Below are positions 14,608 to 39,094 of a stretch of DNA of 52,016 bases, in pieces. Positions within the stretch are counted from its first letter, which is position 1, and every line of letters begins with the position of its first letter. The stretch is from Acidobacteriota bacterium (GTDB lineage Bacteria; Acidobacteriota; Terriglobia; Acidiferrales; UBA7541): contig QHYN01000204.1 in the NCBI GenBank assembly GCA_003224145.1, forward strand, positions 1-52,016, read 5' to 3'. Made by a program: the position numbers and the translations under genes. A model generated the notes under the pieces. That model was not told the DNA's origin. It did no database searches and worked only from the letters and a program-made list of their open reading frames with translations.

Positions 14608-15113
14608 TCTTTGTCTCCCATGGCAACGGGTACGTTGGCATCGATGTATCTCTTTACCTGGGCAGGATTTCCCACCACAATGGCATTGGCGGGGACATCC
14701 TTAGTGATAACGCTTCCGGCGCCGACAATCGCGTTCTCCCCGATCGTTACGTTGGAAAGAACTGTCGTTCCCGAACCGATCGAAGCGCCTTTCTTAACCA
14801 ACGTTCGCTCCACCCTCCAATCCTTTTCACTCTGCAACTGGCCGTCAGCCGTAGTTGCGCGTGGATAGGAATCGTTGATGAACGTGACGCCGTGCCCGAT
14901 AAACACGTTGTCTTCTATCGTCACGCCTTCACAAATGAAGCTGTGGCTTGAGACTTTACAATTCTTCCCGACCGTGGCGTTTTTCTGGATCTCGACAAAT
15001 GCACCAATTTTCGTGTTGTCACCAATTTCGCAGCCATAGAGGTTGATGAACTTGGACAGCTTGACTCCTTCTCCTAATTTCACGTCTGCAGCGATCGAGC
15101 AGAATTCATTCAT
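14604..15113 (-). CDS. Left-handed beta-helix acyltransferase, WbpD-like
   Basis: The 169-residue protein consists almost wholly of hexapeptide repeats ([LIV]-G-x4), for example GVKLSKFINLYGCEIGDN, GVTIEDNVFIGHGV and GENAIVGAGSVITKDVPAN, the hallmark of trimeric left-handed beta-helix acyltransferases. The C-terminal VVGNPAQVKRYI is typical of N-acetyltransferases acting on NDP-amino sugars. The start at 15113 is set by an ATGA overlap with the stop of the oxidoreductase gene; the longer open frame to 15458 lies inside that gene and is rejected. It presumably acetylates the amino group installed by the downstream aminotransferase. Confidence 0.9.
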   Translation of the reverse strand: MNEFCSIAADVKLGEGVKLSKFINLYGCEIGDNTKIGAFVEIQKNATVGKNCKVSSHSFICEGVTIEDNVFIGHGVTFINDSYPRATTADGQLQSEKDWRVERTLVKKGASIGSGTTVLSNVTIGENAIVGAGSVITKDVPANAIVVGNPAQVKRYIDANVPVAMGDKE

Positions 15114-16111
15114 AGCCGGATCAACTCCCCCCTCTTTTGGATGGAGCATTCGGCCGCTTCCAGCATCCGGACGACTCGAAGCCCGGCATGTCCGTCGTTG
15201 AATGGCATCTTGTTGTTCATGATGCAATCCACAAAGTATCCGAGCTCGACGCGCAGCGCCTCCGTTTGTTCGATCTGTGGTGCCCACATGTCGCCGGTGC
15301 GATAGCTCACCAGGAGATCGCGGATTCCCTCTCCCGCGCTGATCTGGACGCCCTTGTCGTACACGCGCACCTTTTCGTCGGCCACCAGATCGTTCCACAC
15401 GAGCATCTTTTTCTGGCCACCGATCAAGGTGGTCCGGATCTTCACTGGCGAGAGCCAATTCACGTTAATGTGCGCGATCACATTCTGTGGGAAGTAGATC
15501 GTCATGAACGCGACGTCTTCCACGCCGTTCAAATGCTTTTCACCGGTTGCAACGATTGCTTCCGGTTCCTTTCTTATCAGGTGATCCATGATGGAGAGAT
15601 CGTGTGGCGCTAAATCCCAAATTACACTGACGTCGTGCTGAAAGAGCCCAAGATTTACACGCAAGGAATCGTAGTAGTAGAGATCGCCCAGATCACCCCT
15701 GTCCACCAGTTCGCGAATCTTGCGAACCGCCCCGGTGAAAAGGAAGGTGTGGTCCACCATGATGGTCAATTTCTTGCGTGCTGCCAGCTCGATGAGTTCC
15801 TCGGCCTGAACCGCGCTGGATGTGAAGGGCTTCTCCACAAAAACATGTTTGCCATTCTCCAGTGCTGCCTTGGCTAGCTCGTAATGCGTCCAGACAGGTG
15901 TGATCACGGCGACGGCGTCGATCTGGGGCGATCGCAGCACCTCGCAAGGGTCAGACGTTGTTGCAAGGCCAGGATAAGACTTCCGCGCATGGGCCAGCGC
16001 TGCCGGGCTTTTGTCGCACACCATCTCGACGCGCGTGTTATCCAGACCATGGAGATTCCGGACGATATTGGGGCCCCAGTATCCGTAACCGATTACACCG
16101 ACTCGAATCAT
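15110..16111 (-). CDS. Gfo/Idh/MocA-family NAD(P)-dependent sugar oxidoreductase, WbpB-like
   Basis: The product has 333 residues. MIRVGVIGYGYWGPN is the Rossmann start, HVFVEKPFTSSAVQAEEL contains the conserved EKP motif, and DLAPHDLSIMDHL supplies the catalytic-site His region of the family. The start at 16111 is chosen because the family begins here and GGAAGAG precedes it; 21 extra codons upstream are not needed. In the WbpB role the enzyme oxidises C3 of an NDP-sugar acid to a 3-keto sugar for the aminotransferase. It is the first gene of the long minus-strand polysaccharide operon, behind a 459-bp gap holding a sigma-54-type promoter. Confidence 0.9.
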   Translation of the reverse strand: MIRVGVIGYGYWGPNIVRNLHGLDNTRVEMVCDKSPAALAHARKSYPGLATTSDPCEVLRSPQIDAVAVITPVWTHYELAKAALENGKHVFVEKPFTSSAVQAEELIELAARKKLTIMVDHTFLFTGAVRKIRELVDRGDLGDLYYYDSLRVNLGLFQHDVSVIWDLAPHDLSIMDHLIRKEPEAIVATGEKHLNGVEDVAFMTIYFPQNVIAHINVNWLSPVKIRTTLIGGQKKMLVWNDLVADEKVRVYDKGVQISAGEGIRDLLVSYRTGDMWAPQIEQTEALRVELGYFVDCIMNNKMPFNDGHAGLRVVRMLEAAECSIQKRGELIRL

Positions 16112-16325
16112 GTCTGCTCTTCCGTCTGGGGAGAAGGGTTTCTCGAGATCGCTAGTGATCGTTGAAGGGAACATTTAGGACTCGATAGGCCATTGTCAAG
16201 ACTGGAACAGGCTACCGCCTAAATGTCACTTCCTAAAATGCTAAATTCTTCTAACTTTACTCTATGTCGCTTGAAATCAATAACTTACAGTAGCTCAGGG
16301 GATTCCAAACGACATCTAGTACAGT

Positions 16326-16341
16326 CGCAATCAGTCTGCCA
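16326..16341 (-). promoter_or_regulatory. Predicted sigma-54 promoter of the polysaccharide synthesis operon
   Basis: The minus strand reads TGGCAGACTGATTGCG against the consensus TGGCACgnnnnTTGCw: the -24 GG and -12 GC are 12 bp apart and both boxes match well apart from the last base. Transcription would start near 16315, giving a leader of about 200 nt before the oxidoreductase ATG. The remainder of the 459-bp gap (16112-16570) is AT-rich and shows no gene. Two ATTGGC repeats near 16421-16439 could be activator sites but are unproven. Confidence 0.6.
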
Positions 16342-16570
16342 TTATCTGGTAAGGCTTATGCGCCGGCTGACCGATGCCGCTCTCTCATAAGTTAATGAAA
16401 ATACTACATTTATTCATGCGATTGGCCCAGAACATTGGCAAGCATGGTTGAAAATTCTGTGATTGGTCGATTTGTGGGGAAAAATCTTACCACCATTTGA
16501 CAACACCATTCCGCAGCGGCCGTTTAATTGCGATGTGCTGAACTCTGGATAGTTCCGGCGTTTTGCAGAA

Positions 16571-17527
16571 TCACTTCTTGTTTGGCAAAGAGCCTGCCGA
16601 TGAGCTCATTCGAAAACGCGAGAGGACCTCGCCAAGGTTCTGGATGAAGGCTTCTGAATTGTAAAGCTCCGCACTCGTCCGCAGATTCTCGGGTGAAGCA
16701 GTTGGTTCGACCTGATCCAACTGAAACTCCCGTGCGACATCCTCGATGATCTTCGGTTGAATCGGCCGCTGTTGTTCCACGTAGGCGTTAATCAATGCAT
16801 GTTCGCACAGCAGGTTCACTACTCGGGGAATCCCTAGAGAATACAGGTGGACCGTTTCCACGGCAGCAGGGCTGAAGATCGGTTGCCCGCTCGGAGTTGC
16901 TCCCGCAATTTTTAATCTTTCGAGAATGTAATCGTGCGTCTGGTCCTTCGTCAGTGGGCCAGTCTTGCAACGAATCATGATGCGTTGCCGCAGCTGCCGG
17001 AGTTGAGGCAGATTCAGCTTCTCTTCGAACTCAGGCTGGCCGGAAAGCACAATTTGCAACAATTTCTCTGTGGATGTCTCCAAGTTGGTGAGCAGACGGA
17101 TCTCTTCCAGCACTGGAAATGTGAGATTTTGCGCTTCGTCAAGAATGAGTACCGCAGTTTCGCCCTTGCGGAAGCGTTCCAAAAGCCACTGATTCAATTT
17201 CATCAGTTGCTGGCTCTTGGAATTCGATTCACAGTGAATATCAAATTCTGCCAGCACAAAGTCGAACAGCTGGGCCGAGTTCATCCGGGAGTTGAACAGA
17301 AATGCCGTCTTCGTTGCGCTCTCGCGAAGCCGATCCAGAAGCCTGTTCACGAGTGTTGTCTTACCTGTCCCCACCTCACCCGTGAGCGTGATAATGCCTT
17401 TTCTAGTCTGGACGCCGTACATGAGACTAGACAATGTCTCCTCGATTTGCTCCGTAAGAAACAGATACCGCGGGTCCGGACTGACATTAAATGGGTTTTC
17501 TTTTAGGCCGTAGAATCCTTTGTACAT
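16571..17527 (-). CDS. ExeA/GspA-like AAA ATPase, PEP-CTERM-locus type
   Basis: The 318 residues start with MYKGFYGLKENPFNVSPDP, the usual N-terminus of ExeA-type ATPases. GEVGTGKTTL is Walker A and AVLILDEAQNL is Walker B; SGQPEFEEKL and LRQRI (sensor and arginine-finger region) follow, and GIPRVVNLLCEHAL is a late sensor motif. ATPases of this subfamily are regularly found in exosortase/PEP-CTERM exopolysaccharide loci as a putative secretion ATPase. Here the gene closes the export operon downstream of the beta-barrel protein. No membrane segment is visible, so it probably works on the cytoplasmic side. Its mechanical role is not established for the family. Confidence 0.9.
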   Translation of the reverse strand: MYKGFYGLKENPFNVSPDPRYLFLTEQIEETLSSLMYGVQTRKGIITLTGEVGTGKTTLVNRLLDRLRESATKTAFLFNSRMNSAQLFDFVLAEFDIHCESNSKSQQLMKLNQWLLERFRKGETAVLILDEAQNLTFPVLEEIRLLTNLETSTEKLLQIVLSGQPEFEEKLNLPQLRQLRQRIMIRCKTGPLTKDQTHDYILERLKIAGATPSGQPIFSPAAVETVHLYSLGIPRVVNLLCEHALINAYVEQQRPIQPKIIEDVAREFQLDQVEPTASPENLRTSAELYNSEAFIQNLGEVLSRFRMSSSAGSLPNKK

Positions 17528-17644
17528 AGTCTCTTTTTTCTGTGGGGCCGTTCGTACTGGTTCTAGATTTCTTCCTTCGAATTCCTATTACCTTGCTCAC
17601 GCGAAGATCTGCACTCGCCATCGAGCCGGAGTCGTGCCTCCACG

Positions 17645-19081
17645 CTATCGTAACACTTGTGGTGCCGCATGCCACTGAACGCTCAGCAGAATTTGGTGGG
17701 TCGTATTGTTCTTCCCGCAATTCGCAGTACCGCACAGGGCCACATTGGAATTTTGAATCTGCGCTTGATATCCTAATGAAAGATTAGTTGTCCTGCCGAA
17801 CGGCCGAGTTAATCCTGCTCCTGGTATCCAAGTATCGTAGCTCGGCGAGGTCGCGCCTGTTACAGGCACAATCTGGCTGTTCTTGGCGTACCCGAAATTC
17901 AAAGCGCCGCTCCACACTCGAGTGAGCGGTCGGCTCCAGTAGGCACTGACCTGATCCGTGCTGGCGCCGCTAAACACCCCGCTCCCGCTGCTTACTCCAT
18001 GCGTGTAGTTCAGCCTGACGGTGGTCAGGGGAAAGGCATAGACTAGCGATCCGGCTCCCGATCCCGAGACCCTCTGCTTCGAACCGTTGATGGGGACGCG
18101 AAACGTGGTCACGTCGGGTCCGCCGTCAAGGTTCAGTGCCAGCCTCCCTGTGATCTTTCTTCCATACGCAAGATGAGCTACATGATCGCCCACCGCCTGC
18201 GGACCACCTGGATAATGATAAGCAGTAAATCGGTAGACCACGCCCAGGTAGTCCCTGCGCGTGATCTCATAGTTGTACCCGACATTGAGGGTTTCGGTAT
18301 CACTGTTGATATTCCCGGAGTTGATAAATCGCAGCAACCCGTGAACCCCTCCGACCGTAATGGATCCGCGCCGGCTCACATCGTAGGTCAGCTGCGCTGC
18401 AGAGGAATTGCTGTAGCGCGGACCGGTCGCCGCCAGGATGGACTGACCAGGCACGAATCCATTCTGAAGTCCGGGCGATGGCGCGGCTAGACTGCCCGTA
18501 ATTCCCGGAGATGCTAGTCCGCTTGCGCCCCCAAACCCAAACGAGCTCTGGGGCAGGTAGGAGAACTGGTCCATAAAGAGTGCCTGCCATCTTCGTTGAT
18601 CAATCTCCAGAGCCGATGCCAGATGATGATATTGCCCGTTTCCCTGGGTCTGATCCTTTGAAAAGAAGCCGCCACCCGAATAATTCATTGAAAGCAGGGC
18701 ATGGCTCCATGCTTCCAGCAAGCTTAAGTTGCCATTCACATAACTCGTCGTAGTCCATCCAGGGCTCCCTGCTGCACTGGAGGAACGAGACTGTGCAATA
18801 TTGCCGTATTGAACCCCAGGCACCCAGTAACTGTGGCGAAGCTCCGAAGTACCTAGTGTCGGACTCTGTACGCCTGTCACCGGCCCCGTGTCTGGTTGCA
18901 TTGTCTGCGTACCCTGATCTGCGTCTTGCTGATTACTGTTCAGATCGGGGAGGGGCAGGAGCACGCGCGCCGCGGGCTTCGGTTTTTCATCCCCCTCTTG
19001 CTGGGCCCATAGCGGTCGTGCCTGGAGCCCAATTGCCATTGTCCCAAGAATCCCGCAGGTTAATTTTTTCCAGATTTTCAT
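17645..19081 (-). CDS. Outer-membrane beta-barrel protein of the export operon
   Basis: The start at 19081 (MKIWKKLTCGILGTMAIGLQARPLWAQQ) gives a clean signal peptide cut after PLWA; the longer frame overlaps the preceding gene. The roughly 450-residue mature part alternates Gly/aromatic strands and turn motifs (YDVSRRGSITVGGVHGLL, TLNVGYNYEITRRDYLGVVYRF) as expected of a transmembrane beta-barrel of about 16-18 strands, and it ends with a QILLSVQW-like strand. A Pro- and Gln-rich linker follows the signal peptide. PEP-CTERM-type exopolysaccharide operons commonly contain an uncharacterised beta-barrel (EpsL-like) at this place, likely an outer-membrane conduit. It starts 10 bp after the polysaccharide export gene. 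Confidence 0.85.
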   Translation of the reverse strand: MKIWKKLTCGILGTMAIGLQARPLWAQQEGDEKPKPAARVLLPLPDLNSNQQDADQGTQTMQPDTGPVTGVQSPTLGTSELRHSYWVPGVQYGNIAQSRSSSAAGSPGWTTTSYVNGNLSLLEAWSHALLSMNYSGGGFFSKDQTQGNGQYHHLASALEIDQRRWQALFMDQFSYLPQSSFGFGGASGLASPGITGSLAAPSPGLQNGFVPGQSILAATGPRYSNSSAAQLTYDVSRRGSITVGGVHGLLRFINSGNINSDTETLNVGYNYEITRRDYLGVVYRFTAYHYPGGPQAVGDHVAHLAYGRKITGRLALNLDGGPDVTTFRVPINGSKQRVSGSGAGSLVYAFPLTTVRLNYTHGVSSGSGVFSGASTDQVSAYWSRPLTRVWSGALNFGYAKNSQIVPVTGATSPSYDTWIPGAGLTRPFGRTTNLSLGYQAQIQNSNVALCGTANCGKNNTTHQILLSVQWHAAPQVLR

Positions 19082-19091
19082 TTCAGTTCCC

Positions 19092-19736
19092 TCACGGCAC
19101 CACAACCACATCTCCCGGTTGCAACTCGATGTTTTGCGCAGGATTTCTTCCGGCGATCGCCTCTTTGTAATTGAATGGAATCTTCACGGGCTTGCCATTC
19201 TCGGTCCTCAAGACGTAAATGTTCTTTATGCGGGCAAACGCCGTAAAGCCGCCGCTTCCCGCAAGCGCCTGCAGCACCGTCATGTGCGGGAGAAGCTGAT
19301 ACGCGCCTGCCTTCGAGACTTCTCCAGTGACGTAGATTCTCCGGCTGTTGATTTCCGACACACTTACCGTCACTTGCGGGTTTGTTATGTACTTCTTCAG
19401 TTCCTCGCGAATTACGCCCGCCAACTCCATGGGTGTCAATCCAACCGCTTGAACATCATTCAGCAACGGCAAAGTGATTTTCCCGTCTGGTCGCACTGGA
19501 ACTATTCGTGTCAATTGCTCTTCTCGCCAGACGTCAATTTTCAATACGTCTTGCGCTCCAATCTTGTAAGTCGGGTCCTCCGCGGCCGGTTGTGCAGCAC
19601 TTGGAGTTGCCTGGCTTTTCGTGTCCTTGGTGTCTTCTTTCTTGTCTTGCGTGGCGGGATTCTGGCTATTTGCGGACGCGCCTCTCGCGATTACGAGGGC
19701 CCCCAGAATCACTAAAATCGACGCTCTGATTGTCAC
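19092..19736 (-). CDS. Wza-like polysaccharide export protein (Poly_export plus SLBB)
   Basis: A signal peptide (MTIRASILVILGALVIARGASA) is followed by a Lys/Asp/Thr-rich linker, then the Poly_export domain starting at YKIGAQDVLKIDVW with VRPDGKITLPLLNDVQAVGLT, and one SLBB domain (RRIYVTGEVSKAGAYQLLPHMTVLQALAGSGG). The 214 residues are shorter than E. coli Wza (about 380), with a single SLBB domain and no lipobox Cys. It probably forms the periplasmic or outer-membrane part of the export channel with the beta-barrel encoded next. The gene begins 4 bp after the stop of the activator gene, so the two are co-transcribed. Confidence 0.92.
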   Translation of the reverse strand: MTIRASILVILGALVIARGASANSQNPATQDKKEDTKDTKSQATPSAAQPAAEDPTYKIGAQDVLKIDVWREEQLTRIVPVRPDGKITLPLLNDVQAVGLTPMELAGVIREELKKYITNPQVTVSVSEINSRRIYVTGEVSKAGAYQLLPHMTVLQALAGSGGFTAFARIKNIYVLRTENGKPVKIPFNYKEAIAGRNPAQNIELQPGDVVVVP

Positions 19737-19740
19737 TTCC

Positions 19741-20706
19741 TCACCTCCGGTCCTTCCGATCCCCTTCCAGCCCTGTCTGCTTTATCTTATAAAGGAGGGA
19801 TTTGTAGCTGATCTGAAGTTCCTGGGCCGCTCGCTTCCGGTTCCAATGTGTCCGTTCAAGCGCTTTTGCGATCAAGTCTCGTTCTGTTCGTCGCGAAGCT
19901 GCTCGGGCCGCTACTTTCAAGGAAGAGCCCCGAGGCTCCTCCGCCAGCGCCGGTTCCAGCCTGGGCATCGCACAAAGCTCTTCAATCGCCCTCCTGGAAT
20001 CACCAAGCACTACGATCTTTCTTGCAAGATTTTCCATTTCACGCAAGTTTCCCGGCCAGTCATGTGTTATAAGCAGTTCCGTTTCCTGGTCGCTCAGCGC
20101 GGGGACCTCCCGTCCCAACTCTGCAGCATGTTTCGCGAGAAAATGCCCCATGAAGACGAGGATGTCTTCTTTTCTGTCTCTCAGGGGAGGCAGGCGCAGG
20201 CAGACTCCGTTAATTCGGAAATACAGCTCCCTTCGGAATCTTCCCGATTCGATCTCCTTCTCGAGATTCCGCGAGGTGGAGGCAATGATGCGCACGCGCT
20301 TAGAACTACTATCCTCGGTCTCTCCGTCCGGCATAAGCGAGAGCAGTGCCCTCTGGCTCTCAAGATCCAATTCATCGATCCCGTCCAGGAAGAGCGTTTG
20401 TAGGCCGTCTTCAGGGCTCTCAGCGCTCTTGCGCAGATCCGATTTCAGCAATGCGAGGAGCTCTCCTTGATCCACCGCCCGGCAGTTCACCTTCTTAAGT
20501 GGCCATTGCCCCTGCTTGGAAAGCCGATGAATCGCTCGCCCGTAGACTTCCTTCCCAGTCCCGCTCTCCCCCTCCAAGAGCACCGGAATACTCGTGCGTG
20601 CAATGTCCTCCACAACCGCATTTAGCCTCTGGATCGCAGGGGAATGGCCCAGAACCAACAGACTGTTCGGGGGATGGAACGCGGCGCCAGTTAGAGACAG
20701 GCTCAT
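19741..20706 (-). CDS. NtrC-type AAA+ regulator lacking the GAFTGA loop
   Basis: The 321 residues have no receiver or sensor domain. The AAA+ core carries Walker A GESGTGKE (46-53), Walker B LFLDGIDELD (105-114) and the arginine-finger region SGRFRRELYFRING (154-167). A Fis-type helix-turn-helix lies at about 274-312 (ALERTHWNRKRAAQELQIS). The segment between ELLALLKSD and LQTLFLDG (about 84-105), where bacterial enhancer-binding proteins have ELFG then GAFTGA, reads KSDLRKSAESPEDG and has no GAFTGA. Family knowledge says this loop contacts sigma-54, so the protein may not remodel it directly; TyrR-like regulators also lack it. GGAGG lies just before the ATG. It is the first gene of the export operon and sits behind a sigma-54-like promoter. 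Confidence 0.9.
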   Translation of the reverse strand: MSLSLTGAAFHPPNSLLVLGHSPAIQRLNAVVEDIARTSIPVLLEGESGTGKEVYGRAIHRLSKQGQWPLKKVNCRAVDQGELLALLKSDLRKSAESPEDGLQTLFLDGIDELDLESQRALLSLMPDGETEDSSSKRVRIIASTSRNLEKEIESGRFRRELYFRINGVCLRLPPLRDRKEDILVFMGHFLAKHAAELGREVPALSDQETELLITHDWPGNLREMENLARKIVVLGDSRRAIEELCAMPRLEPALAEEPRGSSLKVAARAASRRTERDLIAKALERTHWNRKRAAQELQISYKSLLYKIKQTGLEGDRKDRR

Positions 20707-20726
20707 AAACCTCCATAGCGATCAAG

Positions 20727-20742
20727 TGCAAATCCCCTGCCA
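20727..20742 (-). promoter_or_regulatory. Predicted sigma-54 promoter of the activator/export operon
   Basis: The minus strand reads TGGCAGGGGATTTGCA, matching TGGCA and TTGCA with GG and GC 12 bp apart. The start point would be near 20716, only about 10 nt before the ATG, leaving a leader that is little more than the GGAGG ribosome site. The promoter suggests positive control of the activator and the three export genes behind it. Confidence 0.6.
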
Positions 20743-20857
20743 GGTAGAATTTCACGGAGAAGGTCACCTTCCTTTATTAACGTGTTTTCTTTCAACGGTT
20801 TACGAGGAGGTGTAGGATTGGGCTTCAAAGAAAAGTAGTGGCTAAAGTCCTAGTTTT

Positions 20858-20874
20858 GTGCCAAGAAGTGCCAA
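20858..20874 (-). promoter_or_regulatory. 10-bp-phased direct repeat, possible upstream activator site
   Basis: The plus strand shows GTGCCAA twice with a 10-bp period (20858-20864 and 20868-20874). That is 140-160 bp upstream of the predicted start point of the activator/export operon, the usual place for enhancer-type sites. One helical turn between copies fits a dimeric activator on one face of the DNA. Part of the motif resembles half of a -24 box, but no correctly spaced -12 box follows. Confidence 0.3.
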
Positions 20875-20940
20875 TTTTTTTTCCTTCTCAGTTCCTATGA
20901 GGGTCTGAAAGCGCGGGCGATTCGACTTCCACAAAATAGC

Positions 20941-20970
20941 TGACCCCGCTCCAAGTCTGGGGCGGGGTCA
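20941..20970 (-). terminator. Stem-loop terminator behind the PEP-CTERM gene
   Basis: A perfect 9-bp inverted repeat (TGACCCCGC and GCGGGGTCA) is separated by 12 nt. On the minus strand it is followed by GCTATTTT, a weak U-tract. It lies about 30 nt beyond the PEP-CTERM stop codon (21004) and before the activator promoter region. Confidence 0.6.
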
Positions 20971-21003
20971 TGGGACTGAGGGTGTGTCCAAAATTCAGAG
21001 AAC

Positions 21004-21621
21004 TTAATTGGTTAGAAAGCGACGGCCGGCGAGCGCGCCTAGAGCCAGCAATCCCGTGCCAAGCAACAGCATGCTGGAGGGTTCTGGGACGTTAGTCGTA
21101 GTAATCAAGCTGGAACTCCATGGGCTCACAGCGACCAAGTTTCCGCTGGAATCCAACAGAAAGGCAATGAAAATCGTCCCCGCTGGCACGCCGCCCGGGA
21201 GGGTAACCGACTGGCCTACATTCACGTTTCCAGTCCAAGCCCCCACCTGGAAGGACGTGGCACTGAAGCTGCCCGCAGTCATACCCGTGGCTAACTGCTC
21301 CTGGCTCACTGTGCTGGCAAAGTTGGGGAATACTTGAGTTGGACTTACGCCAAGCACCGCCCAGAGGTTGGTACTGCTGTTAAAGTTTCCGCCGGTACCA
21401 GTGTTCGGCGTCAGCACGGCAATGAACAGCGTCTCGCTGCTATTGGCCGTGCCGAAGGCCCATGCTTGCGTTGTCCCCACTGAAACTTGGATCGCGTTGC
21501 CGGCATTGCAGGTAGTAAATTGATTGATATCGCATAAATGAATGTTGTCGGCCATTGCCGGCGCGCTGTAACACAGGGCAACCGTCGCCAAGGCCAAAAC
21601 CAGTAAAGTCTTCCGAATCAT
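21004..21621 (-). CDS. PEP-CTERM sorted surface protein
   Basis: The start at 21621 (MIRKTLLVLALATVALCYSAPAMA) gives a signal peptide, with GAGGGC about 6 nt upstream; 17 further upstream codons are left out. The 205-residue product ends in the tripartite PEP-CTERM signal: NVPEPSS, then a hydrophobic helix (MLLLGTGLLALGALAG), then the basic tail RRFLTN. Exosortases recognise this signal and cut near the PEP motif, releasing the protein to the cell surface or matrix. The mature part is Thr/Ser/Asn/Gly-rich with few Cys. It is the only PEP-CTERM protein seen in the window, lies divergent from the exosortase gene, and has a strong sigma-54-type promoter. Confidence 0.93.
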   Translation of the reverse strand: MIRKTLLVLALATVALCYSAPAMADNIHLCDINQFTTCNAGNAIQVSVGTTQAWAFGTANSSETLFIAVLTPNTGTGGNFNSSTNLWAVLGVSPTQVFPNFASTVSQEQLATGMTAGSFSATSFQVGAWTGNVNVGQSVTLPGGVPAGTIFIAFLLDSSGNLVAVSPWSSSLITTTNVPEPSSMLLLGTGLLALGALAGRRFLTN

Positions 21622-21667
21622 GCACGCCCTCGCAGTCCTACAGAGATAAGAACACGTGCTCTGTGCC

Positions 21668-21683
21668 AGCAATCGCTATGCCA
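21668..21683 (-). promoter_or_regulatory. Predicted sigma-54 promoter of the PEP-CTERM gene
   Basis: The minus strand reads TGGCATAGCGATTGCT, nearly the full sigma-54 consensus with GG and GC 12 bp apart. The start point would be near 21657, giving a 36-nt leader with a ribosome site before the ATG at 21621. This is one of the two best matches in the window. RpoN control of PEP-CTERM genes is known from other bacteria with exosortase systems. Confidence 0.7.
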
Positions 21684-22160
21684 TATCAATCCAACATCCC
21701 TAGACTGGACAACCCATCCAAGTTATGTGTTTTCATATAGTTATACGGATCAAGTCGATTTAAGACTTCGACCGGCCAGCTCCCCACTATAGCTTTGGGA
21801 AAACTTCTGCGCATTCTTGTACTTTCCACGACAAAAGGCCTAACTCCGCAGATATCTGGTGGCCGGCCCGTCGACCAACATCGCCGTGCACGCGGAGTGA
21901 CGTACCATTCCGGCCCGCCATGCCGTCACGTTCTAAACGGTGAATAGTGCGGTGCAAAACGCCGTTCTCGCCCCTTGAGTCTACCATGTTCCTTCGCTCC
22001 CCCTGTCGGTCCGAAGGCCTCGCCATTTCCATCTCATTGCGTTCACTCCAGTAGCTAATTCAATGTCTCCCAATCATTTCCCCGGCCCTTCGAGTCCGGA
22101 ATCAGATACACTTCTGGACAGAAGAGGGAGCAGGTCCTGGCCACGGCCGACACAACCGAG
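21684..22160. other. Intergenic region between divergent PEP-CTERM and exosortase genes
   Basis: About 480 bp without a supportable gene. An 81-codon minus-strand open frame at 21787-22032 has no ribosome site and an ordinary shadow-like composition. No sigma-54 match was found in the exosortase direction, so the exosortase is probably under another sigma factor. Confidence 0.5.
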
Positions 22161-23048
22161 GTGAGTGATTCTAGTTCAGCCTGGACGAAGCGGTGGCTGT
22201 TGTTTTCCTGTTGGATGGTTCTCTCATCCTTGCTGTTCAAGAATCCTGTCGGTGCCCTCGTCCGATTGTCTCTTTCGCAGGACGATGCCTCCTACCTAGT
22301 ACTCATTCCGTTTATCAGCGCCACGGTTCTTTACTTGGAGCACTCCAGAATTTTTCTGCGTCTCGCAGGCGATAAAATGCTCGCAGCCATTTTCCTTTTT
22401 TTCGCCGGCTGTGCCGCGCTCGCTTCGCATCTTGCGGGGAACCATTCATCGCTCGGCGTTCAACTCTCAGGCTGGATCCTTTCCCTCGTGTTGGTTTGGG
22501 TGGCAGGCTTTGCTCTTTTCTTTGGGAAAGCCGCTCTAAAAGCAGCGCACTTCTCCCTGCTCTTCCTCTTACTGATGATTCCCCCACCTAATTTTCTTCT
22601 GGATCGCATCATCTACTTCCTCCAGGAGGGCTCCGCTTGGATAACGGGAGCCTTGTTCGACCTTTTCAGAGTCCCCGCATTGCGCGAGGGCTTAGTGTTT
22701 CATCTCGCACGAGTCGATATTGAGGTGGCAAAAGAGTGCAGCGGCATCCGCTCTAGCATGGCTTTGCTCATCCTGGCGCTGCTCATTTCCCATTTTCGTC
22801 TTAAGAGTTTTTGGTACAAGACATTGTTCGTCGCCTGCGGTCTGTTCATGATGATCTTAAAGAACGGAATCCGCATTGCTACGCTTACACTTCTTGCAAT
22901 ATACGTCGACCCGAATTTTCTTTTTGGCAGATTGCATCACCAGGGAGGCGTGGTCTTTTTTGTGCTGGCCCTTCTTTTGTTATTGCCCTTGCTGTTTTTC
23001 CTGCAGCGCGTGGAGGCGAAGAGGGGCAAAACGGCAGAGCCATATTAG
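22161..23048 (+). CDS. Exosortase (membrane Cys protease/transpeptidase for PEP-CTERM proteins)
   Basis: The 295-residue protein has about eight hydrophobic segments. The catalytic residues of the exosortase/archaeosortase family are all visible: Cys193 in VAKECSGIRSS, Arg238 in KNGIRIATLTLL, and His259/His260 in GRLHHQGGVVFF. The enzyme processes PEP-CTERM tails of exported proteins at the inner membrane. No C-terminal EpsI (DUF3485) domain is fused, and no separate EpsI gene follows, unlike many proteobacterial loci. The start is a GTG; a Met at codon 19 is possible. The gene lies divergent from its likely substrate and convergent with the BY-kinase gene, with a 203-bp gap. Confidence 0.93.
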   Translation: MSDSSSAWTKRWLLFSCWMVLSSLLFKNPVGALVRLSLSQDDASYLVLIPFISATVLYLEHSRIFLRLAGDKMLAAIFLFFAGCAALASHLAGNHSSLGVQLSGWILSLVLVWVAGFALFFGKAALKAAHFSLLFLLLMIPPPNFLLDRIIYFLQEGSAWITGALFDLFRVPALREGLVFHLARVDIEVAKECSGIRSSMALLILALLISHFRLKSFWYKTLFVACGLFMMILKNGIRIATLTLLAIYVDPNFLFGRLHHQGGVVFFVLALLLLLPLLFFLQRVEAKRGKTAEPY

Positions 23049-23251
23049 ACATCCAGCCGGGGACCTACAGCACCAGACCACTTTACGCTCTAGAATCCGG
23101 AAGAATCTAGTTTGCGGAGGCACCCCCATCCTGCAAATGGCGCGGCACTCGGGCGCAAAACTCCGTAGAATGACGCGTAACTATATAATGGGTAAGGACT
23201 TGGGCGGCGCTTTCCGCGCATTAGGGATAGATATAAGGCAACCAACCCGCT

Positions 23252-24166
23252 TTAGTCGCGCTCGGCGTAGTAATTTTGGTATTCGTCGCCGTAAGAATCG
23301 CTTCTTTCAACCTGATTGAGCACCACTCCGAGAAGGTTCTTGCCTTGGAATTCAGCCGCGGTTCTCTCCGCAATTGCGGCATCCGTTGAGCCCGCCCGGA
23401 TCACAAACAAAACTCCATCCACCAGATCAGCGAGAATACTTGCATCATGGACCGGTAAGGTCGGCGGAGAATCGATGATGATCCAATCGAAGCTCGGAGC
23501 GACTAGATTGAGCAGGTGCTTCATCCTCTCATTCAGCAGTAGCTCGCTCGGGTTGGATACCAGACTCCCGCCCGGGATCAAGAAAAGATTCTCCTTCGTG
23601 CCTTTCTGAATTACCGCATACTCGTCCGCGTCACCTCGCAAGTAGTCCGAGAGTCCTGGGCAGCTCGGCGCTCCAAACAGCACGTGCAATCGCGAAGACC
23701 GCAAGTCTGCGTCAATAAGCAGAACTCGCAGTTCCGGCTGTTGAACAATCGATTGGGCGAGATTTGATGCCACGAAGGTTTTCCCTTCGGCGGCAACTCC
23801 GCTAGTAATGAGAACCTTTTGCAGCTTACGTGTGGATGCAATTTTGTACAGCCGCGAGCGCAAAGTACGAAACCGTTCAGGCCCGCCTTCGCCCGGTTTC
23901 GAGTTTAGAAACACACTACTGACCGGATCGAGTCGCCACTCGACTTGTGCACAGCGCTTTATTAGCTCTTCGTAATGAAAAGGTACATCTTGATTGTCAC
24001 CGGTTGGGACCCGTGGAGCAGCTGTGGGCTGTGCGATTCCTGGTCCTTGCGTGATCGGGCGTCTGAGTTCCCCTGTAACTTCCACGACCCCGGTTTCGAG
24101 TCCTGCCGCGAGCTGCGCGGATCTCTCTTCGGCGGCTTTCTTCAACGCTTCATGAATGCGACTCAT
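23252..24166 (-). CDS. CpsD/CapB-type bacterial tyrosine kinase (BY-kinase)
   Basis: The 304-residue P-loop kinase has Walker A SGVAAEGKT (122-130), Walker A' RVLLIDADLR (about 147-156) and Walker B DWIIIDSPP, the three-motif set of BY-kinases that control polysaccharide polymerisation. A tyrosine cluster at the end (YGDEYQNYYAERD) is the usual autophosphorylation tail. The N-terminal 80 residues form a helical SRIHEALKKAAEER start seen in PEP-CTERM-locus kinases. The gene lies 28 bp downstream of the Wzz-like gene, so the transmembrane activator and the kinase are separate proteins expressed together. Confidence 0.93.
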   Translation of the reverse strand: MSRIHEALKKAAEERSAQLAAGLETGVVEVTGELRRPITQGPGIAQPTAAPRVPTGDNQDVPFHYEELIKRCAQVEWRLDPVSSVFLNSKPGEGGPERFRTLRSRLYKIASTRKLQKVLITSGVAAEGKTFVASNLAQSIVQQPELRVLLIDADLRSSRLHVLFGAPSCPGLSDYLRGDADEYAVIQKGTKENLFLIPGGSLVSNPSELLLNERMKHLLNLVAPSFDWIIIDSPPTLPVHDASILADLVDGVLFVIRAGSTDAAIAERTAAEFQGKNLLGVVLNQVERSDSYGDEYQNYYAERD

Positions 24167-24194
24167 CGTCTCCTCGGAAGTCCCTCTACTCCAT

Positions 24195-25694
24195 TCAATC
24201 TCTTGCGACGCCGGACCGCTTCAGAAATCCCGCGCCAGTCCTTCCAGCAGCAGCTTCAAGAACGGGCAGACTGGTGAGGACAGGGAGCTTAAGATACATC
24301 TCGACCTCCCTTTCCGTGTGTAAAGTCTTGTCCATTGCCATTAACAAATACAGGATGGTCAAACCCAACACCGCACCTCCTCCCAGGCCTCCCCCCGCGA
24401 AATTCAGCATCTTGGGGAAGGATGGGCCCGTCGGCAAGCTCGGTGGGTCCAGCACGCGAAATTGCTCACCCTCCTGCTGATGAACCAGGTCTCTTGCCAT
24501 CGCGGAATTGTCCCGCTTCTTCAACAGGTCGTTGTAAAAAGCCAGGGCACTGTCATAATTGCGCGTCAATTCTTTTAGCTGCAGCTCTACCATTGGGCTG
24601 GCCTCGATGTGGCCCTCAATCACTCGGATTTGATCCTGAATCTTCACCTGTCGCTTCCCCAGTTCAGCGTAGTTAAGTTCCTCCTGTCCTATTCTTGTGC
24701 GAAGCTGTTGAATCTGAGGAGGTTCTGTCTGTTTACGGGACTTGATTGACGAATCGTCGGCACTTGGCATTTGCTCAATCTTCTTTTCGAGCTCAGCAAT
24801 CTCATTTTGCAGCTTTGCCACATCTGGATGGTCTTCCGTGTAGCGTGATTTGAGAACTGTCAATTGCTCCTGCCGAGTCCGCAGTTGTTCCTCGAGGGTT
24901 TCGGCGCTCTGCGCCGCCGTTTGGGAGGCCTTCCAACTTGCCTCCTGCTGACTCAAGAGGGTTTCATTCATTGACTTGTCCTGCTGCTCCCGAGTGAGCG
25001 CCTGGGTCGTGGCATCCAGTTCAGAATTCAGGCTCGACAAGAGACTGAGATTGCGCTGTTCTTGTTCCGGCAACAACCCCATGTATTGGCGCTTGAATTG
25101 AGCCAGCTTGGCATCCTGCTCATTTAGCTTGGTCTTCGCTTCTTCCAGTTGCTGGCCAATAAAGGAGGTGGTGCGGCTGACCTGCTGTTCCAACGATCGT
25201 GCATTTTGTTCCATGAACATCGAGGTGATTTCCGTGCAAATCTGCTGCGCGATTTGCGCATCGTTGAACGATACGTTCACAGAAAACCCGGGCAAATTTC
25301 GATCCTGAGTGCCGGGCATCGCTTCAAGGGCAGAAATCACAATCGCTTTTCGCAAGCGTTCAATCAAATCTTCCATGGGGAGCTTGGCTCGGTCATTGGC
25401 GTAAAGGTTGAATCTTTCGATGATTGGCTCTAGTCGGGTCCGGCTCAGAATCTGTTCCTTCATCGAGGCGAGGCGCTGGCTCAAATCCTCGGTCACGACA
25501 GGCTTCACGTACTCCTCTGGGACGGTCGGCCTCGCCACGAGCACAAGTGTCTGGGACGTATACAGCTTCGGAAGCTGCGTCGCCACCAAGATGCTGAGAA
25601 TCCCGCAGCCCAAAGCGCAGGCCGGAAGGATCCACCAGTGCTTGCGCAGCACTCTTTTTACATCCGCAGTACTGAATTCGCCGTTCCGAACCAT
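24195..25694 (-). CDS. Wzz/GumC-like chain-length determinant protein
   Basis: The 499-residue protein has two membrane segments: one near residues 20-40 (HWWILPACALGCGILSILVA) and one near 435-460 (NFAGGGLGGGAVLGLTILY). Between them lies a long periplasmic domain rich in Gln, Glu, Lys and Leu heptads (about 170-340), a coiled coil. The N-terminal Wzz motif LYTSQTLVLVARP and the Pro-rich segment before the second membrane helix (LDPPSLPTGPSFPKML) are typical. It sets chain length and activates the BY-kinase encoded next. GGAGAG about 8 nt before the ATG supports the start, and a sigma-54-type promoter lies 50-65 bp upstream. Confidence 0.93.
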   Translation of the reverse strand: MVRNGEFSTADVKRVLRKHWWILPACALGCGILSILVATQLPKLYTSQTLVLVARPTVPEEYVKPVVTEDLSQRLASMKEQILSRTRLEPIIERFNLYANDRAKLPMEDLIERLRKAIVISALEAMPGTQDRNLPGFSVNVSFNDAQIAQQICTEITSMFMEQNARSLEQQVSRTTSFIGQQLEEAKTKLNEQDAKLAQFKRQYMGLLPEQEQRNLSLLSSLNSELDATTQALTREQQDKSMNETLLSQQEASWKASQTAAQSAETLEEQLRTRQEQLTVLKSRYTEDHPDVAKLQNEIAELEKKIEQMPSADDSSIKSRKQTEPPQIQQLRTRIGQEELNYAELGKRQVKIQDQIRVIEGHIEASPMVELQLKELTRNYDSALAFYNDLLKKRDNSAMARDLVHQQEGEQFRVLDPPSLPTGPSFPKMLNFAGGGLGGGAVLGLTILYLLMAMDKTLHTEREVEMYLKLPVLTSLPVLEAAAGRTGAGFLKRSGVARD

Positions 25695-25742
25695 ACATTT
25701 CTCTCCGCGAGAGACAGCTCAGACTGTCCCATCGCAGGGGGG

Positions 25743-25758
25743 AGCACGCAACATGCCA
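25743..25758 (-). promoter_or_regulatory. Predicted sigma-54 promoter of the Wzz/BY-kinase operon
   Basis: The minus strand reads TGGCATGTTGCGTGCT: the -24 box TGGCA and the -12 box TGCT are 12 bp apart, with one mismatch in the TTGC part. The start point would be near 25732, 38 nt before the ATG. Confidence 0.55.
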
Positions 25759-25829
25759 CCGCCCTCCCAACCGAAGAAAAGGCGAATGAAGGATAACATG
25801 CTTTTTAATCAATACTTTACGGCCCCATC

Positions 25830-25849: not shown

Positions 25850-26085
25850 AACCTTGCCCAGCTTTCGATGAACTTGAAAAGTGGAACTTTTGTATCCAGA
25901 ATATCCCTAAATTTGGCCATGAACCCTCATCTTTTCGGGGATGGGCAAATCAAGAACGCTCAGTCGGAAGAGAATGCACTTCCGGGTCGAGCTTATAGTC
26001 TTTTGTTTCATAAGCTTAGGATTTCCGTTTTTGATCTCCACTCGATGCTTTCTCGGATGTAGAATTGCTTTCCAGGCATCCTGTC

Positions 26086-29612: not shown

Positions 29613-32600
29613 TTACGGTATGGCGGCCGATACTTGGTTCGAGTAAATGCTCTCATTGCCGCCGGAATCCACGGCCGATGTCACATAATAGTAGGTCGTT
29701 CCGGTCTGGACATTCGAGTCGGTGTATGTCAGGACACTGACCAGCGACGAGTTCAACTTCACGTACCCGCTGCCGCTGACCGTGCTGCGATATACGTTGT
29801 ACCCCGATACCGTCGACGTGCTCGCATTCCAAGTGAGCGCCACCGAGTGCTGTACCGGAGTTACGCCCGTTCCGAATAGGGTCACCGCTGCTGGCGATCC
29901 CGTTGCATTGCTCGCAATCGAGATAGTCCCGTTTGCAGTGCCCGCAACGGTCGGATTGAACACCACTGACAGGGTAAGGCTTTGCAAGGGCGACAGTGTC
30001 ACCGGCGCGCTTCCCCCGGTCATGGAGTACTCTGCACTCAAAGTGATTGATGAGATCGTCACGTTGGCATTACCAGTGTTGGTAATGGTGACGGTTTGCG
30101 GCGCGGAAGAAGTCCCCGTTGTTATGCTACCGAAGCTCAGGCTCGTGGGGTTAATTCCCAGTGTATAGATCGCAGCAATCCCAGAGCCGCTAAGATTGAC
30201 AGGCGTTGGTGAAGTGGGCGAATTGCTCACGATGGAAATAGTTCCAGAAACAGGGCCAACCACGGTGGGTACAAACGCCACAGTGATGGTTTTCTGCTGT
30301 CCGGCGTTCACGCTTAACGGCAGCGAGAAGCCGCTGACGCTGAAGACGGAGGCGGACACGCTTATTTGCGCGATGCTCAGCGTGGCCGTGCCCGTGTTGG
30401 TAATGATCAAGGGTTGGGAAGTGGTGGTACCAACTACGTCGTTGTTTCCAAAGTTGATCGAGGTGGGATTCACCTGAATCGCTGGCGCCGGGGCCGGATT
30501 CACCGTCAGCGTCGCTGCACTGCTCGTTGCTGTACCGGCGGTGTTCGTTACCATGACTCGGAATGTGGACCCACTATCTGCGGTTGTCGTCGCTGGGGTC
30601 GTGTAACTCGCTGCCGTCGCCCCCGCGATGTTTCCCCCGTTCTTCTGCCATTGGTAACTGAGCGGCGCGGTCCCCGTCGCCACCACCGTGAACGTCGCCG
30701 TCTGCCCCGCCGTCACCGTCTGGTTCGCCGGCTGCGTGGTGATCGTTGGCGCTACCGGTGCCGGATTCACCGTCAGCGTCGCTGCGCTGCTCGTTGCTGT
30801 ACCCGCCGTGTTCGTTACCACGACTCGGAATGTGGACCCGCTGTCTGAAGTCGTCGTCACTGGCGTCGTGTAACCACTCGACGTGGCCCCCACCATGCTC
30901 ACTCCGTTCTTCTGCCACTGGTAACTGAGCGGCGCCGTGCCCGTCGCCACCACCGTGAACGTCGCCGTCTGCCCCGCCGTCACCGTCTGATTCGCCGGCT
31001 GTGTGGTGATCGCCGGCGCCACCGCGGCTGCGTTCACCGTCAGCGTCGCTGCGTTGCTCGTTGCTGTACCCGCACTATTGCTCACCACCACCGCAAATGT
31101 CGACCCGCTATCTGCTGTTGTCGTCGCCGGCGTCGTGTAACTACTCGACGTGGCCCCCGCGAGGTTCGCTCCGTTCTTCTGCCACTGGTAACTGAGCGGC
31201 GCCGTGCCCGTCGCCACCACCGTGAACGTCGCCGTCTGCCCCGCCGTCACCGTCTGATTCGCCGGCTGCGTGGTGATCGCCGGCGCCACCGCGGCTGCGT
31301 TCACCGTCAGCGTGGCCGCCGCGCTCGTCACCGTCCCCGCCATGTTGTTCACTACCACCGCAAATGTCGACCCGCTATCTGCTGTTGTCGTCGTCGGCGT
31401 CGTGTAACCACTCGACGTGGCCCCCACCATGCTCACTCCGTTCTTCTGCCACTGGTAACTGAGCGGCGCGGTGCCCGTCGCCACCACCGTGAATGTCGCC
31501 GTCTGCCCCGCCGTCACCGTCTGGTTCGCCGGCTGCGTGGTGATCGTTGGCGCTACCGCGGCTGCGTTCACCGTCAGCGTGGCCACCGCGCTCGTCACCG
31601 TCCCCGCCATGTTGTTCACCACCACCGCAAATGTCGATCCGCTATCTGAAGTCGTCGTCGCTGGTGTCGTGTAACTGCTCGACGTGGCCCCCGCGAGGTT
31701 CCCCCCATTCTTCTGCCACTGGTAACTGAGCGGCGCGGTCCCCGTCGCCACCACCGTGAACGTCGCCGTCTGCCCCGCCGTCACCGTCTGGTTCGCCGGC
31801 TGCGTGGTGATCGCCGGCGCTACCGGTGCCGGATTCACCGTCAGCGTCGCTGCGCTGCTCGTTGCTGTACCCGCCGTGTTCGTTACCACGACTCGGAATG
31901 TGGACCCGCTATCCGCCGTCGTTGTCGCTGGTGTTGTGTAGCTCGCTGCCGTGGCCCCCGCGAGGTTCGCTCCGTTCTTCTGCCACTGGTAACTGAGCGG
32001 CGCGGTGCCTGTCGCCACCACCGTGAACGTCGCCGTCTGCCCCGCCGTCACCGTCTGATTCGCCGGCTGCGTGGTGATCGTTGGCGCTACCGGTGCCGGA
32101 TTCACCGTCAGCGTCGCTGCGCTGCTCGTTGCTGTGCCCGCACTGTTGCTCACCACCACCGCAAATGTCGACCCGCTATCTGAAGTCGTCGTCACCGGCG
32201 TCGTGTAACTACTCGACGTGGCCCCCGCGAGGTTCACCCCGTTCTTCTGCCACTGGTAACTGAGCGGCGCGGTCCCCGTCGCCACTACCGTGAATGTCGC
32301 CGTCTGCCCCGCCGTCACCGTCTGGTTCGCCGGCTGCGTGGTGATCGCCGGCGCTACCGGTGCGGGATTCGCCGTAAAGTCCACTCCTGCGACGTTCGCC
32401 CCATTAAGCGTTGTATTCTGGGTACTTGGAGTAAACGTATAACCTGCATGATTCGGAGCAACCCCGTACTTCCCATTCGGCAATCCGGCAAGCACGTAAT
32501 TGCCCGAGTTGTCTGCTGTCGTGGTCGTGGTCGCCGCCCCAGTCAGCGTCAGCGTCGCCCCGCTTCCTCCGGCTGAAGGGCTAATCGTGCCTGAAATGCT

Positions 32601-33140: not shown

Positions 33141-33527
33141 TATTTCCTCTGGGCTGAGGTCAGGACGTACTCGGAAACGGGGGTGGGGTCCGCTCGGGTC
33201 GCTGCTCTGGATTGCCCTAACTCCACTACACGTGGATGATAGACAGACGAACACTCCGCTAACTACTGGTGTGAGGAACAGTTTTGGTGCAGGGCTCAAA
33301 TCCGAACTGCATGCTTCGCGTGCAGTGTCCTTCGGCCAGTTACCAACTGCCCGATTGGACGAGTCCCCTAAGAGATATACGGGGAGGAATTTAATTATTG
33401 AATCTTCTTCTGTTGGTGAAGAGTCGGATGCTTACAGCAAAAGAATTGTGAACGCAAATGAATCAGACTATTGAATCGTATCGCTTGGAGAAGTTCCGGA
33501 CGAAAAGAAAGCTTGTCGTAGGATCCG
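33141..33527. other. Leader and intergenic region upstream of the Ig lipoprotein
   Basis: This 387-bp gap has no supportable gene. It contains a strong imperfect hairpin (ACTGCATGC 33306-33314 and GCGTGCAGT 33318-33326 around TTC, one mismatch) and a small CAGTT/AACTG stem at 33337-33349. The phrase TGTCCTTCGG (33326-33335) also occurs at 29478-29487 in the structured leader of the neighbouring lipoprotein gene. No sigma-54 match was found. Confidence 0.4.
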
Positions 33528-34601: not shown

Positions 34602-34901
34602 ATTCCGCTCAGGGATTTAGTGGAGGAAGGGAAGCACACGACAGACCATCGAACGAATCCGGCCACAAAGTCATTTATGGTCAGGTTCGTCCATTAACCT
34701 GTTTGCTTGAAAGGACTTAGACCGGGAAGAGGCGGAGTGGTTTTAGTACCGCCCTAAGAAGCTAAACTGTTGCCGTAGGAATTAAATAGTAAAAACTTCT
34801 CCCACGCTCGAAAATAATTTTCTCTCGCTGGATACTGTAGTGCTCAATTCCATCTTCAAGGACCGATCGGTGCGTTCTCAATCTGCCGATTCGAACAGGC
34901 T
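34602..34901. other. Intergenic region between the activator and CBS genes
   Basis: This gap of 300 bp is AT-rich. A minus-strand frame at 34762-35145 overlaps the CBS gene in another frame and is a shadow. I see no clear promoter or terminator here. Confidence 0.4.
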
Positions 34902-37592: not shown

Positions 37593-37621
37593 TGGCTCTT
37601 CCTTTTCAAAAATCGTCGACG

Positions 37622-38851: not shown

Positions 38852-39078
38852 TGACTAACCTTGTCCTTCGAGAATTGTGGTAAATATTTTCCCGAGCCGA
38901 CCGCTCATAGTTGCAGAGGGGCTTCCAAGAGTCAATGGTAAAAGCGTTCCATTTGCACATATGAGGAAAGGAAGTGGATTTCTCAGGCAATCCTTGCATC
39001 TCACAAAGTCTCTCTGTTTGAGATACGTTCTAAATGGTTCTTTCCAAAAGATTTAATTTGAGTTCAAAACAATTTCTC

Positions 39079-39094
39079 TGGCATTCAAGATGCT
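39079..39094 (+). promoter_or_regulatory. Possible sigma-54 promoter of a PilZ gene
   Basis: The plus strand reads TGGCATTCAAGATGCT: TGGCA and TGCT with 12-bp GG-to-GC spacing, one mismatch in the TTGC box. The start point would be near 39105, just before the first possible ATG at 39113. It sits across from the NtrC-type kinase/regulator genes. A weaker case than those in the polysaccharide locus. Confidence 0.4.

Follow-up and report, generated by a model that had tools for sequence, protein, structure and literature searches.

Introduction

Sigma-54 control of PEP-CTERM genes is known from Proteobacteria. As described by Haft et al. (2006; PMC1569441), the PEP-CTERM/EpsH system includes PrsK, PrsR and PrsT, and sigma-54 sites precede its PEP-CTERM genes; among the species discussed in that paper the motifs are reported in Proteobacteria only, and the accompanying motif 1, a 17-nucleotide sequence ending in TTTACA, is placed on average 62.8 nucleotides before the sigma-54 motif. 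The pepA promoter of Aquincola tertiaricarbonis has been mapped to a -24/-12 sequence and its transcription is reported to require rpoN (RpoN1); prsT is described as unaffected by rpoN1 (PMC9850573). A general link between sigma-54, exopolysaccharide genes and the bacterial exterior was drawn by Francke et al. (2011; PMC3162934). Here we describe a 52,016-nucleotide stretch of DNA, contig QHYN01000204.1 of assembly GCA_003224145.1 (contig C47 in a genome of 4.79 Mb and 359 contigs; hereafter “the window”), from a soil bacterium in an uncultured family of Acidobacteriota. Four intergenic sites spread over its exosortase and polysaccharide locus are probably genuine -24/-12 promoters that belong to a single sigma-54 regulon under enhancer-dependent control.

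Measured against the text of PMC1569441, the locus resembles the PrsK-PrsR-PrsT system in having sigma-54 sites and a second upstream element before PEP-CTERM genes, and in having an NtrC-type response regulator with its histidine kinase, a PrsT-like TPR protein, an exosortase and polysaccharide genes nearby. It differs from that description in several respects. The proximal element here (D2), which ends in TTA(C), is longer than motif 1 as described in the text (a 30-nucleotide dyad) and lies closer (34-45 nucleotides in the window); there is a further, distal element (D1); and the regulon would include exporter, Wzz, sugar, PilZ and GGDEF genes. Against the PrsR model TIGR02915 the response regulator scores 375.6 bits, under the cut-off of 502.6, and no PrsK model was found among the best 25 of 80 matches. 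The PrsT-like protein, the ATPase and the Wzz protein also fall under the XrtA-system cut-offs, by smaller margins than the response regulator. The upstream elements, too, are of other lengths and spacings. In its working the locus appears to resemble the PrsR regulon, to which it nevertheless cannot be assigned.

As at Aquincola pepA (PMC9850573, in the parts that concern pepA and prsT), a -24/-12 site precedes the PEP-CTERM gene and prsT has no site; unlike the present genome, Aquincola belongs to the Proteobacteria, and RpoN dependence has been shown for its PEP-CTERM gene. The main text of PMC3162934 contains neither “acidobacteri” nor “PEP-CTERM”. Among open-licence articles in PubMed Central no paper combined the terms Acidobacteri, exosortase and PEP-CTERM; subscription papers lie outside that search. 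A proteobacterial comparison with a Dechloromonas genome, in which two genes end in VPLPG/VPLPA-type motifs and have no good sigma-54 site, was uninformative.

The logic of control would be similar to that in Proteobacteria, with different upstream elements. The regulon would join an exporter, chain-length control, sugar genes and a sorted protein with PilZ and GGDEF genes, and a testable activator can be named. What appears to be new is the conserved first gene of the exporter operon, which encodes an activator-like protein without GAFTGA under a sigma-54-type promoter.

Conserved sigma-54-type sites in the locus

The first-pass annotation of the window had listed four matches to TGGCA-N7-TGC. 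All four exist on the minus strand (16327-16341, 20728-20742, 21669-21683 and 25744-25758), each in intergenic DNA 22-153 nucleotides 5' of a minus-strand gene (with the PEP-CTERM start taken as 21621). They have the -24/-12 layout, with GG and GC separated by 10 nucleotides in the context TGGCA..TTGC. One rpoN gene is present in the genome (contig C335; 406.5 bits against a cut-off of 277 in a profile search).

The site TGGCAGGGGATTTGCA (20727-20742, minus strand) precedes the exporter operon, whose first gene (19741-20706, minus strand) encodes EBPd, an AAA+ protein with a Fis-type helix-turn-helix and no GAFTGA motif. We compared 40 related loci with EBPd at 47-72% identity, 39 of which have sequence available upstream of EBPd. 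A sigma-54 site lies at -32 to -120 before EBPd in 38 of these 39. As a spacer control, TGG-N8-TTGC was found in 34 of the 39 exporter promoters, compared with 0-5 for spacers of 3-7 and 9-14 and none on the opposite strand. Across 47 aligned promoter sequences the mean column identity was 36%, and T-GG and T-GC were invariant; GG and GC were demanded by the search, the two Ts not each demanded.

The site before the Wzz - tyrosine autokinase unit, TGGCATGTTGCGTGCT (25743-25758, minus strand), is conserved where Wzz heads the unit. Homologues were counted here, and for the sugar genes, at 40% identity or more with an alignment start within the first 60 residues. TGG-N9-TGC occurs at -45 to -64 in all four relatives in which Wzz heads its own unit (L060-L063; matrix scores 14.4-17.7) and within 130 nucleotides in none of the 15 in which Wzz lies inside the exporter gene run. 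The weaker Wzz homologues of L064 and L069 stand outside this count; L064 carries a site.

Further sites had been missed. The gene for a second enhancer-binding protein, EBP2, is preceded by TGGTCTGTCGTGTGCT (34633-34648, minus strand), and 12 of 13 relatives (all except L062) have TGG-N9-TGC at -41 to -69 with matrix scores of 11.5-17.2; EBP2 sites were accepted more loosely than exporter sites, and all 12 nevertheless have this form. A fifth intergenic exact match, unlisted in the first pass, lies 20 nucleotides before the PilZ gene (39079-39093, plus strand; site TGGCATTCAAGATGCT, 39079-39094) and is kept in all four relatives with a PilZ homologue in the compared loci. Before the GGDEF gene lies TGGACTCTTGGTTGCT (39662-39677, plus strand), and the three relatives with a GGDEF gene in the compared loci all have TGGTCTCTTGGTTGCT at -92/-93.

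For the PEP-CTERM gene, whose site is TGGCATAGCGATTGCT (21668-21683, minus strand), relatives were searched by pattern rather than by Pfam, with about 310 nucleotides examined per gene. Eight rows were obtained. One of them, L091 11078, reads the exosortase gene region out of frame and was excluded; for L069 the locus includes little sequence upstream. A sigma-54 site was present in 5 of 7, where the control rate predicts about 0.03 sites (score of at least 10) per gene. In the window's own genome, both PEP-CTERM genes that exceed the family cut-off have a sigma-54-like site (score of at least 11) near the start, and so does one that falls short of it; two weak family matches (C123, C338) are of unestablished gene status.

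The remaining listed site, TGGCAGACTGATTGCG (16326-16341, minus strand), stands before the oxidoreductase and sugar genes. It is an exact match with a D1 core and D2 upstream, and, judged by its conservation, it is the weakest and least certain of the promoters. The absence of a sigma-54 match before the exosortase, as first annotated, holds for the window. In contrast, the relative L091 (10979, plus strand) has a sigma-54 site and D2 59 nucleotides before its exosortase.

Two upstream elements shared by the promoters

In the exporter promoters of the relatives, D1 has the consensus AAAGGGAAAAnAnTTTGCCACTTnGTGGAA and lies mostly about 120-140 nucleotides before -24, counted from its TTGCCAC part; D2 is a proximal dyad, GTAA...TGAAAATAAA...TTA, whose end lies mostly 33-38 nucleotides before -24. 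At the window promoters the D1 core (approximately GGNNAANNNTTNNCCAC) starts 131-156 nucleotides upstream of -24, and D2, a 30-nucleotide GTAA...TTAC dyad, ends 34-45 nucleotides upstream.

All of these elements are on the minus strand. The exporter promoter has D1 in its full form at 20846-20886 (core start 144 nucleotides upstream of -24) and D2, with the GTAA...TTA dyad, at 20777-20806 (34 nucleotides upstream). At the PEP-CTERM promoter D2 (21718-21747) scores 23.2 and the D1 core (21795-21814) is weak, with a score of 9.0. The Wzz promoter has D2 at 25794-25823 and a D1 core at 25880-25899, the counterpart of which is the region's best D1 match in four of four relatives. The corresponding positions are 34694-34723 and 34785-34804 at the EBP2 promoter, and 16387-16416 and 16475-16494 at the sugar promoter. 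The sugar site is in fact flanked by two D2 dyads, one upstream (16384-16416) and one downstream (16262-16291).

The D1 and D2 matrices were trained on the relatives' exporter promoters, and the site matrix on their exporter, Wzz, EBP2 and sugar promoters, with the window excluded throughout. D1 and D2 training did without L080, whose promoter lies beyond the contig, and L088, which has no site; EBP2 of L062 was left out of the site matrix. Testing D1 and D2 on the relatives is biased because the elements were first seen by eye there; this bias does not extend to the window or to other promoters.

Over all window positions, the D1 core ranks 1 at the exporter promoter, 2 at the sugar promoter, 3 and 6 before the histidine kinase gene, 9 at the Wzz promoter and 19 at the EBP2 promoter. 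When site and D1 were scored together, the four listed sites and that of EBP2 were within the top six of 600 window candidates, and all exceeded the highest score among 2,612 control candidates. The composite of site, D1 and D2 gave 64.9 for the exporter promoter, the window's best, followed by 43.7 (PEP-CTERM), 38.5 (Wzz), 38.2 (sugar) and 38.0 (EBP2), with the next place in the window at 19.2; the best control candidates scored 34.1 and 18.6. D2 alone at the PEP-CTERM, Wzz, sugar and EBP2 promoters was beaten by at most 2 of the 2,612 controls.

A census at fixed thresholds returned exactly five promoters in the window, the four listed and that of EBP2, compared with one place in 187 kb of control DNA. 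In 650 kb of the relatives it gave 13 matches beyond the training promoter sets, 11 of them before genes of this kind. These are Pfam-checked genes for Wzz (L064), a nucleotidyltransferase (L067), an exosortase (L091) and NusG-type proteins (L076, L088), as well as genes for PilZ (L079) and for PEP-CTERM proteins judged by their tail (L067, L070, L091, L096); one further match, also in L070, precedes the gene of a PEP-CTERM-like protein with PTP replacing PEP and no Pfam match. The two exceptions are L069 3792 and L070 1078. A D2 plus sigma-54 model, trained on no PEP-CTERM promoter, gave 26 matches in the whole genome, among which the exporter promoter was 2nd, the PEP-CTERM promoter 3rd and the Wzz promoter 11th.

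The sixth of the site and D1 candidates is the site before the histidine kinase gene (38927, minus strand). It has a high score for site and D1 together but a poor D2, it is unconserved (no site in four of four relatives), and we dropped it. The two D1-core-like boxes ranked 3 and 6 lie there at 38876-38895 (minus strand) and 38934-38953, and GGGAAAATATTTACCAC was spotted by eye before the histidine kinase gene in L061-L063.

We also rejected a long, EBPd-type D1 combined with sigma-54 as the shared signature: it picked out just the exporter promoter, and a shorter core of D1 was required to reach the rest. The full-D1 model (R2), built on 36 rows after two with D1 below 10/15 were removed, has a single match over the 4.79 Mb genome, at the exporter promoter (E 3.7e-5).

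D2-like sequences were seen elsewhere as well. At C45:36132-36178 (plus strand; L162) of the same genome, a D2 scoring 24.2 is followed by a TGGCCCGCAAAATGCT sigma-54 site and then by a gene for a pilin-like protein that bears an N-terminal methylation motif. The NusG-type genes of L076 (4777, minus strand) and L088 (3599, minus strand) have a sigma-54 site and D2 upstream; antitermination of polysaccharide genes is a possible role for them. A near-identical dyad, TTTGTATGAATTTCAAAACAAAGGAGTTAC, occurs without a sigma-54 site in L165, L167, L170, L171 (the same place as in L113) and L173 (own genome), and in looser form in L174. In L113 it stands before a gene that resembles a transporter by eye, and it is perhaps the operator of another regulator.

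Candidate regulators

EBPd, EBP2 and the response regulator have similar recognition helices (nearly the same, ISYK[SA]LLYK). The response regulator (36135-37625, minus strand) is of the NtrC type, with Walker A, Walker B (LDE) and GAFTGA intact. Of the 95 genomes of the order, its own counted, 76 have a match to it at E <= 1e-150. The histidine kinase (37622-38851, minus strand) is its cognate by position. EBP2 (33528-34601, minus strand) is an AAA+ enhancer-binding protein without a receiver domain; GAFTGA is present in the window copy and in 12 of 13 relatives, and in the window copy the Walker B glutamate is replaced (LFLDG). Since its motifs are intact, EBPd lacks GAFTGA and EBP2 lacks the Walker B glutamate, the response regulator is the best candidate and most likely the activator.

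EBPd retains Walker A and the arginine finger, and GAFTGA is found in none of 40 relatives. It has 35-45 residues from VNC to Walker B, compared with 50 in EBP2 and the response regulator. Its AAA+ domain begins near residue 19 and there is no receiver domain. The predicted model (predicted local distance difference test score 79) folds like a sigma-54 activator. Among solved structures it comes nearest to 1ojl (which we take to be ZraR), NtrX, FleQ and NtrC1, with VpsR also listed, and the modelled fold resembles those of FleQ and VpsR. Because the sigma-54 contact motif is missing, EBPd is probably not the activator.

Homologues of sigma-54 activators in which GAFTGA is altered or deleted have been described, as far as the relevant sections of these papers go: Vibrio cholerae VpsR, TyrR and HupR (PMC3162934) and Caulobacter NtrC (PMC10274813). 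VpsR and Caulobacter NtrC are reported to act on polysaccharide genes as well (PMC3162934, PMC10274813). EBPd is unlike VpsR and NtrC in having no receiver domain, and its own gene stands at the head of an operon whose sigma-54-type promoter is conserved. Without the sigma-54 contact loop, it would more likely be a modulator or feedback regulator than an activator. VpsR and NtrC have a receiver domain, as not every GAFTGA-less member does. A more specific suggestion, which we offer tentatively and regard as rather doubtful, is that EBPd is a built-in brake that occupies shared enhancers or poisons mixed hexamers and so caps the polysaccharide, PEP-CTERM and cyclic di-GMP regulon. What is shown is the resemblance of its helix, the loss of the loop and the place of its gene. 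If true, a disarmed paralogue would be holding back the activator family to which it belongs, as a conserved form of feedback.

A predicted regulon and its alternatives

From the sites, their spacing and conservation, the shared elements and the intact or lost motifs, all of which are directly observed, we infer sigma-54 dependence, the pairing of proteins with elements, a signal and a role for EBPd. In the proposed mechanism sigma-54 RNA polymerase would bind the -24/-12 sites and wait for an enhancer-binding protein, which would dock at D1, D2 or both. The activator would be the NtrC-type response regulator, driven by the adjacent histidine kinase, and its targets would be the exporter operon, Wzz with its tyrosine autokinase, the PEP-CTERM protein, the sugar genes, EBP2, PilZ and GGDEF. 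With these targets shared, polymer synthesis, export, the sorted protein and cyclic di-GMP signalling would therefore rise together. The initial proposal of one regulon over sugar synthesis, export, chain length and the sorted protein is thus supported by conservation and by two shared upstream elements. Its extent needs revision: the four units stay, and the conserved sites of EBP2, PilZ and GGDEF support an extension from four to seven promoters, of which the sugar-operon site is the least certain.

The original argument that four such matches are unlikely by chance is weak. The window has seven exact TGGCA-N7-TGC matches, where shuffling predicts 2.15 and 2 of 100 shuffles reach at least seven, and two of the seven (16583, plus strand, and 21258, plus strand) are antisense matches inside opposite-strand genes. 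Twenty other contigs of the same genome, used as a control, hold 4 exact matches in 186,874 bases, and TGGCAN6TTGC occurs 59 times in the whole genome against 34 for the reversed pattern. A matrix scan found a higher density of sites scoring at least 10 in the window than in the control contigs, but the enrichment is mild (26.9 against 18.7 per 100 kb). We therefore rejected bare-pattern counts as decisive: with a weak window excess and a mild matrix enrichment, chance is a possible reading of the pattern alone, and conservation in the relatives decides. That the sites are chance matches in intergenic DNA, with ordinary sigma-70 promoters driving transcription, is very hard to reconcile with the exact spacing seen in 34 of 39 relatives when other spacers occur in 0-5 of them, with a Wzz site retained precisely in the relatives whose Wzz gene comes first in a unit of its own, and with the conservation of the exporter, Wzz, EBP2, PilZ and GGDEF sites. 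We consider it highly improbable for the set, and a chance origin possible for the sugar-operon site. It is also conceivable, and in our view unlikely, that the sites are real and each promoter has a different activator, making these several adjacent, independent sigma-54 promoters rather than a single regulon. The genome (G000) has 15 matches to EBPd at E <= 1e-30, so that many such proteins are available; D1 variants differ among the promoter groups, the full D1 being specific to the exporter promoter; D2 is absent at the GGDEF promoter of the window and weak at most EBP2 promoters of the relatives. Against this, a D2 matrix trained on exporter promoters alone gives the PEP-CTERM, Wzz, sugar and EBP2 promoters of the window higher scores than it gives any but 2 of 2,612 controls, and the D1 core ranks 1, 2, 9 and 19 among all window positions at four promoters. 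EBPd itself could be the activator, making an unusual contact with sigma-54 without GAFTGA; it opens the exporter gene run of the window as well as those of the relatives, and it keeps Walker A and the arginine finger. Its L1-loop stretch is 5-15 residues shorter, however, GAFTGA is absent in 40 of 40 relatives, and such deletions are described in PMC3162934 as abolishing the sigma-54 function of homologues, which makes this role most improbable.

Several observations weigh against a single sigma-54 regulon, our preferred interpretation. Polysaccharide synthesis in Aquincola is, going by the title of a 2017 paper, reportedly not RpoN-requiring. The exosortase and prsT genes of the window have no upstream sigma-54 site, the exporter site is absent in L088 (1 of 39 relatives), and the sugar-operon site is retained in just two (L065, L080) of the seven relatives that have the oxidoreductase gene. 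The mild matrix enrichment belongs here as well, as does the presence of the full D1 at the exporter promoter only; D1-core ranks 4, 7 and 8 in the window fall at no promoter considered. D2 is weak or absent (score below 5) at 9 of 12 EBP2 promoters of the relatives, and weak at most of those outside the closest genomes, and the spacing from D2 to the site does not fit at the genome's other confident PEP-CTERM gene. The 26 matches of the D2 plus sigma-54 model in the whole genome do not include the EBP2 promoter, and they include the sugar promoter only through the dyad that lies downstream of the site, the promoter itself reaching 4.4 bits. The top match (C275:2658) is directed into another gene at its 3' end. 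Nineteen of the 26 are D2-like dyads without a sigma-54 site; because of these, D2 is not specific to the promoters described here and was rejected as a sigma-54-only signature. It may belong to a wider-acting protein.

Gene content of the locus

The operon limits given here are presumed. On the minus strand, a GFO/IDH/MocA oxidoreductase gene (15110-16174) is followed by aminotransferase, nucleotidyltransferase, glycosyltransferase, asparagine-synthase-like and Wzy-type genes to the window start, and these sugar and polysaccharide genes, headed by the oxidoreductase, presumably form one operon. The exporter operon, also on the minus strand, runs in the order EBPd, a Poly_export/SLBB exporter (19092), a 488-residue protein (17645) and an ATPase of the PEP-CTERM-associated type (16571). 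The PEP-CTERM protein (21004-21621, minus strand) matches PF07589 above the cut-off.

The exosortase gene (22161-23048, plus strand) is the sole one found in the genome. Its product passes the general exosortase/archaeosortase signature and matches no named type (best XrtW, 132 bits, cut-off 425), and by these profile scores it is an untyped variant. The Wzz-type chain-length determinant (24195-25694, minus strand; TIGR03007, 237 bits, cut-off 279) is followed by the tyrosine autokinase (23252-24166, minus strand). The PrsT-like TPR protein (26065, plus strand) scores 306.5 bits against a TIGR02917 cut-off of 312.2. On the plus strand, the PilZ-domain protein (39113-39487; PF07238, E 8.7e-8) is followed by the GGDEF diguanylate cyclase (39753-41042; PF00990). 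Between the PrsT-like gene and EBP2 lies a gene for a 1228-residue protein (29613-33299, minus strand) with seven Ig-type stretches and ASH/HYDIN-like domains.

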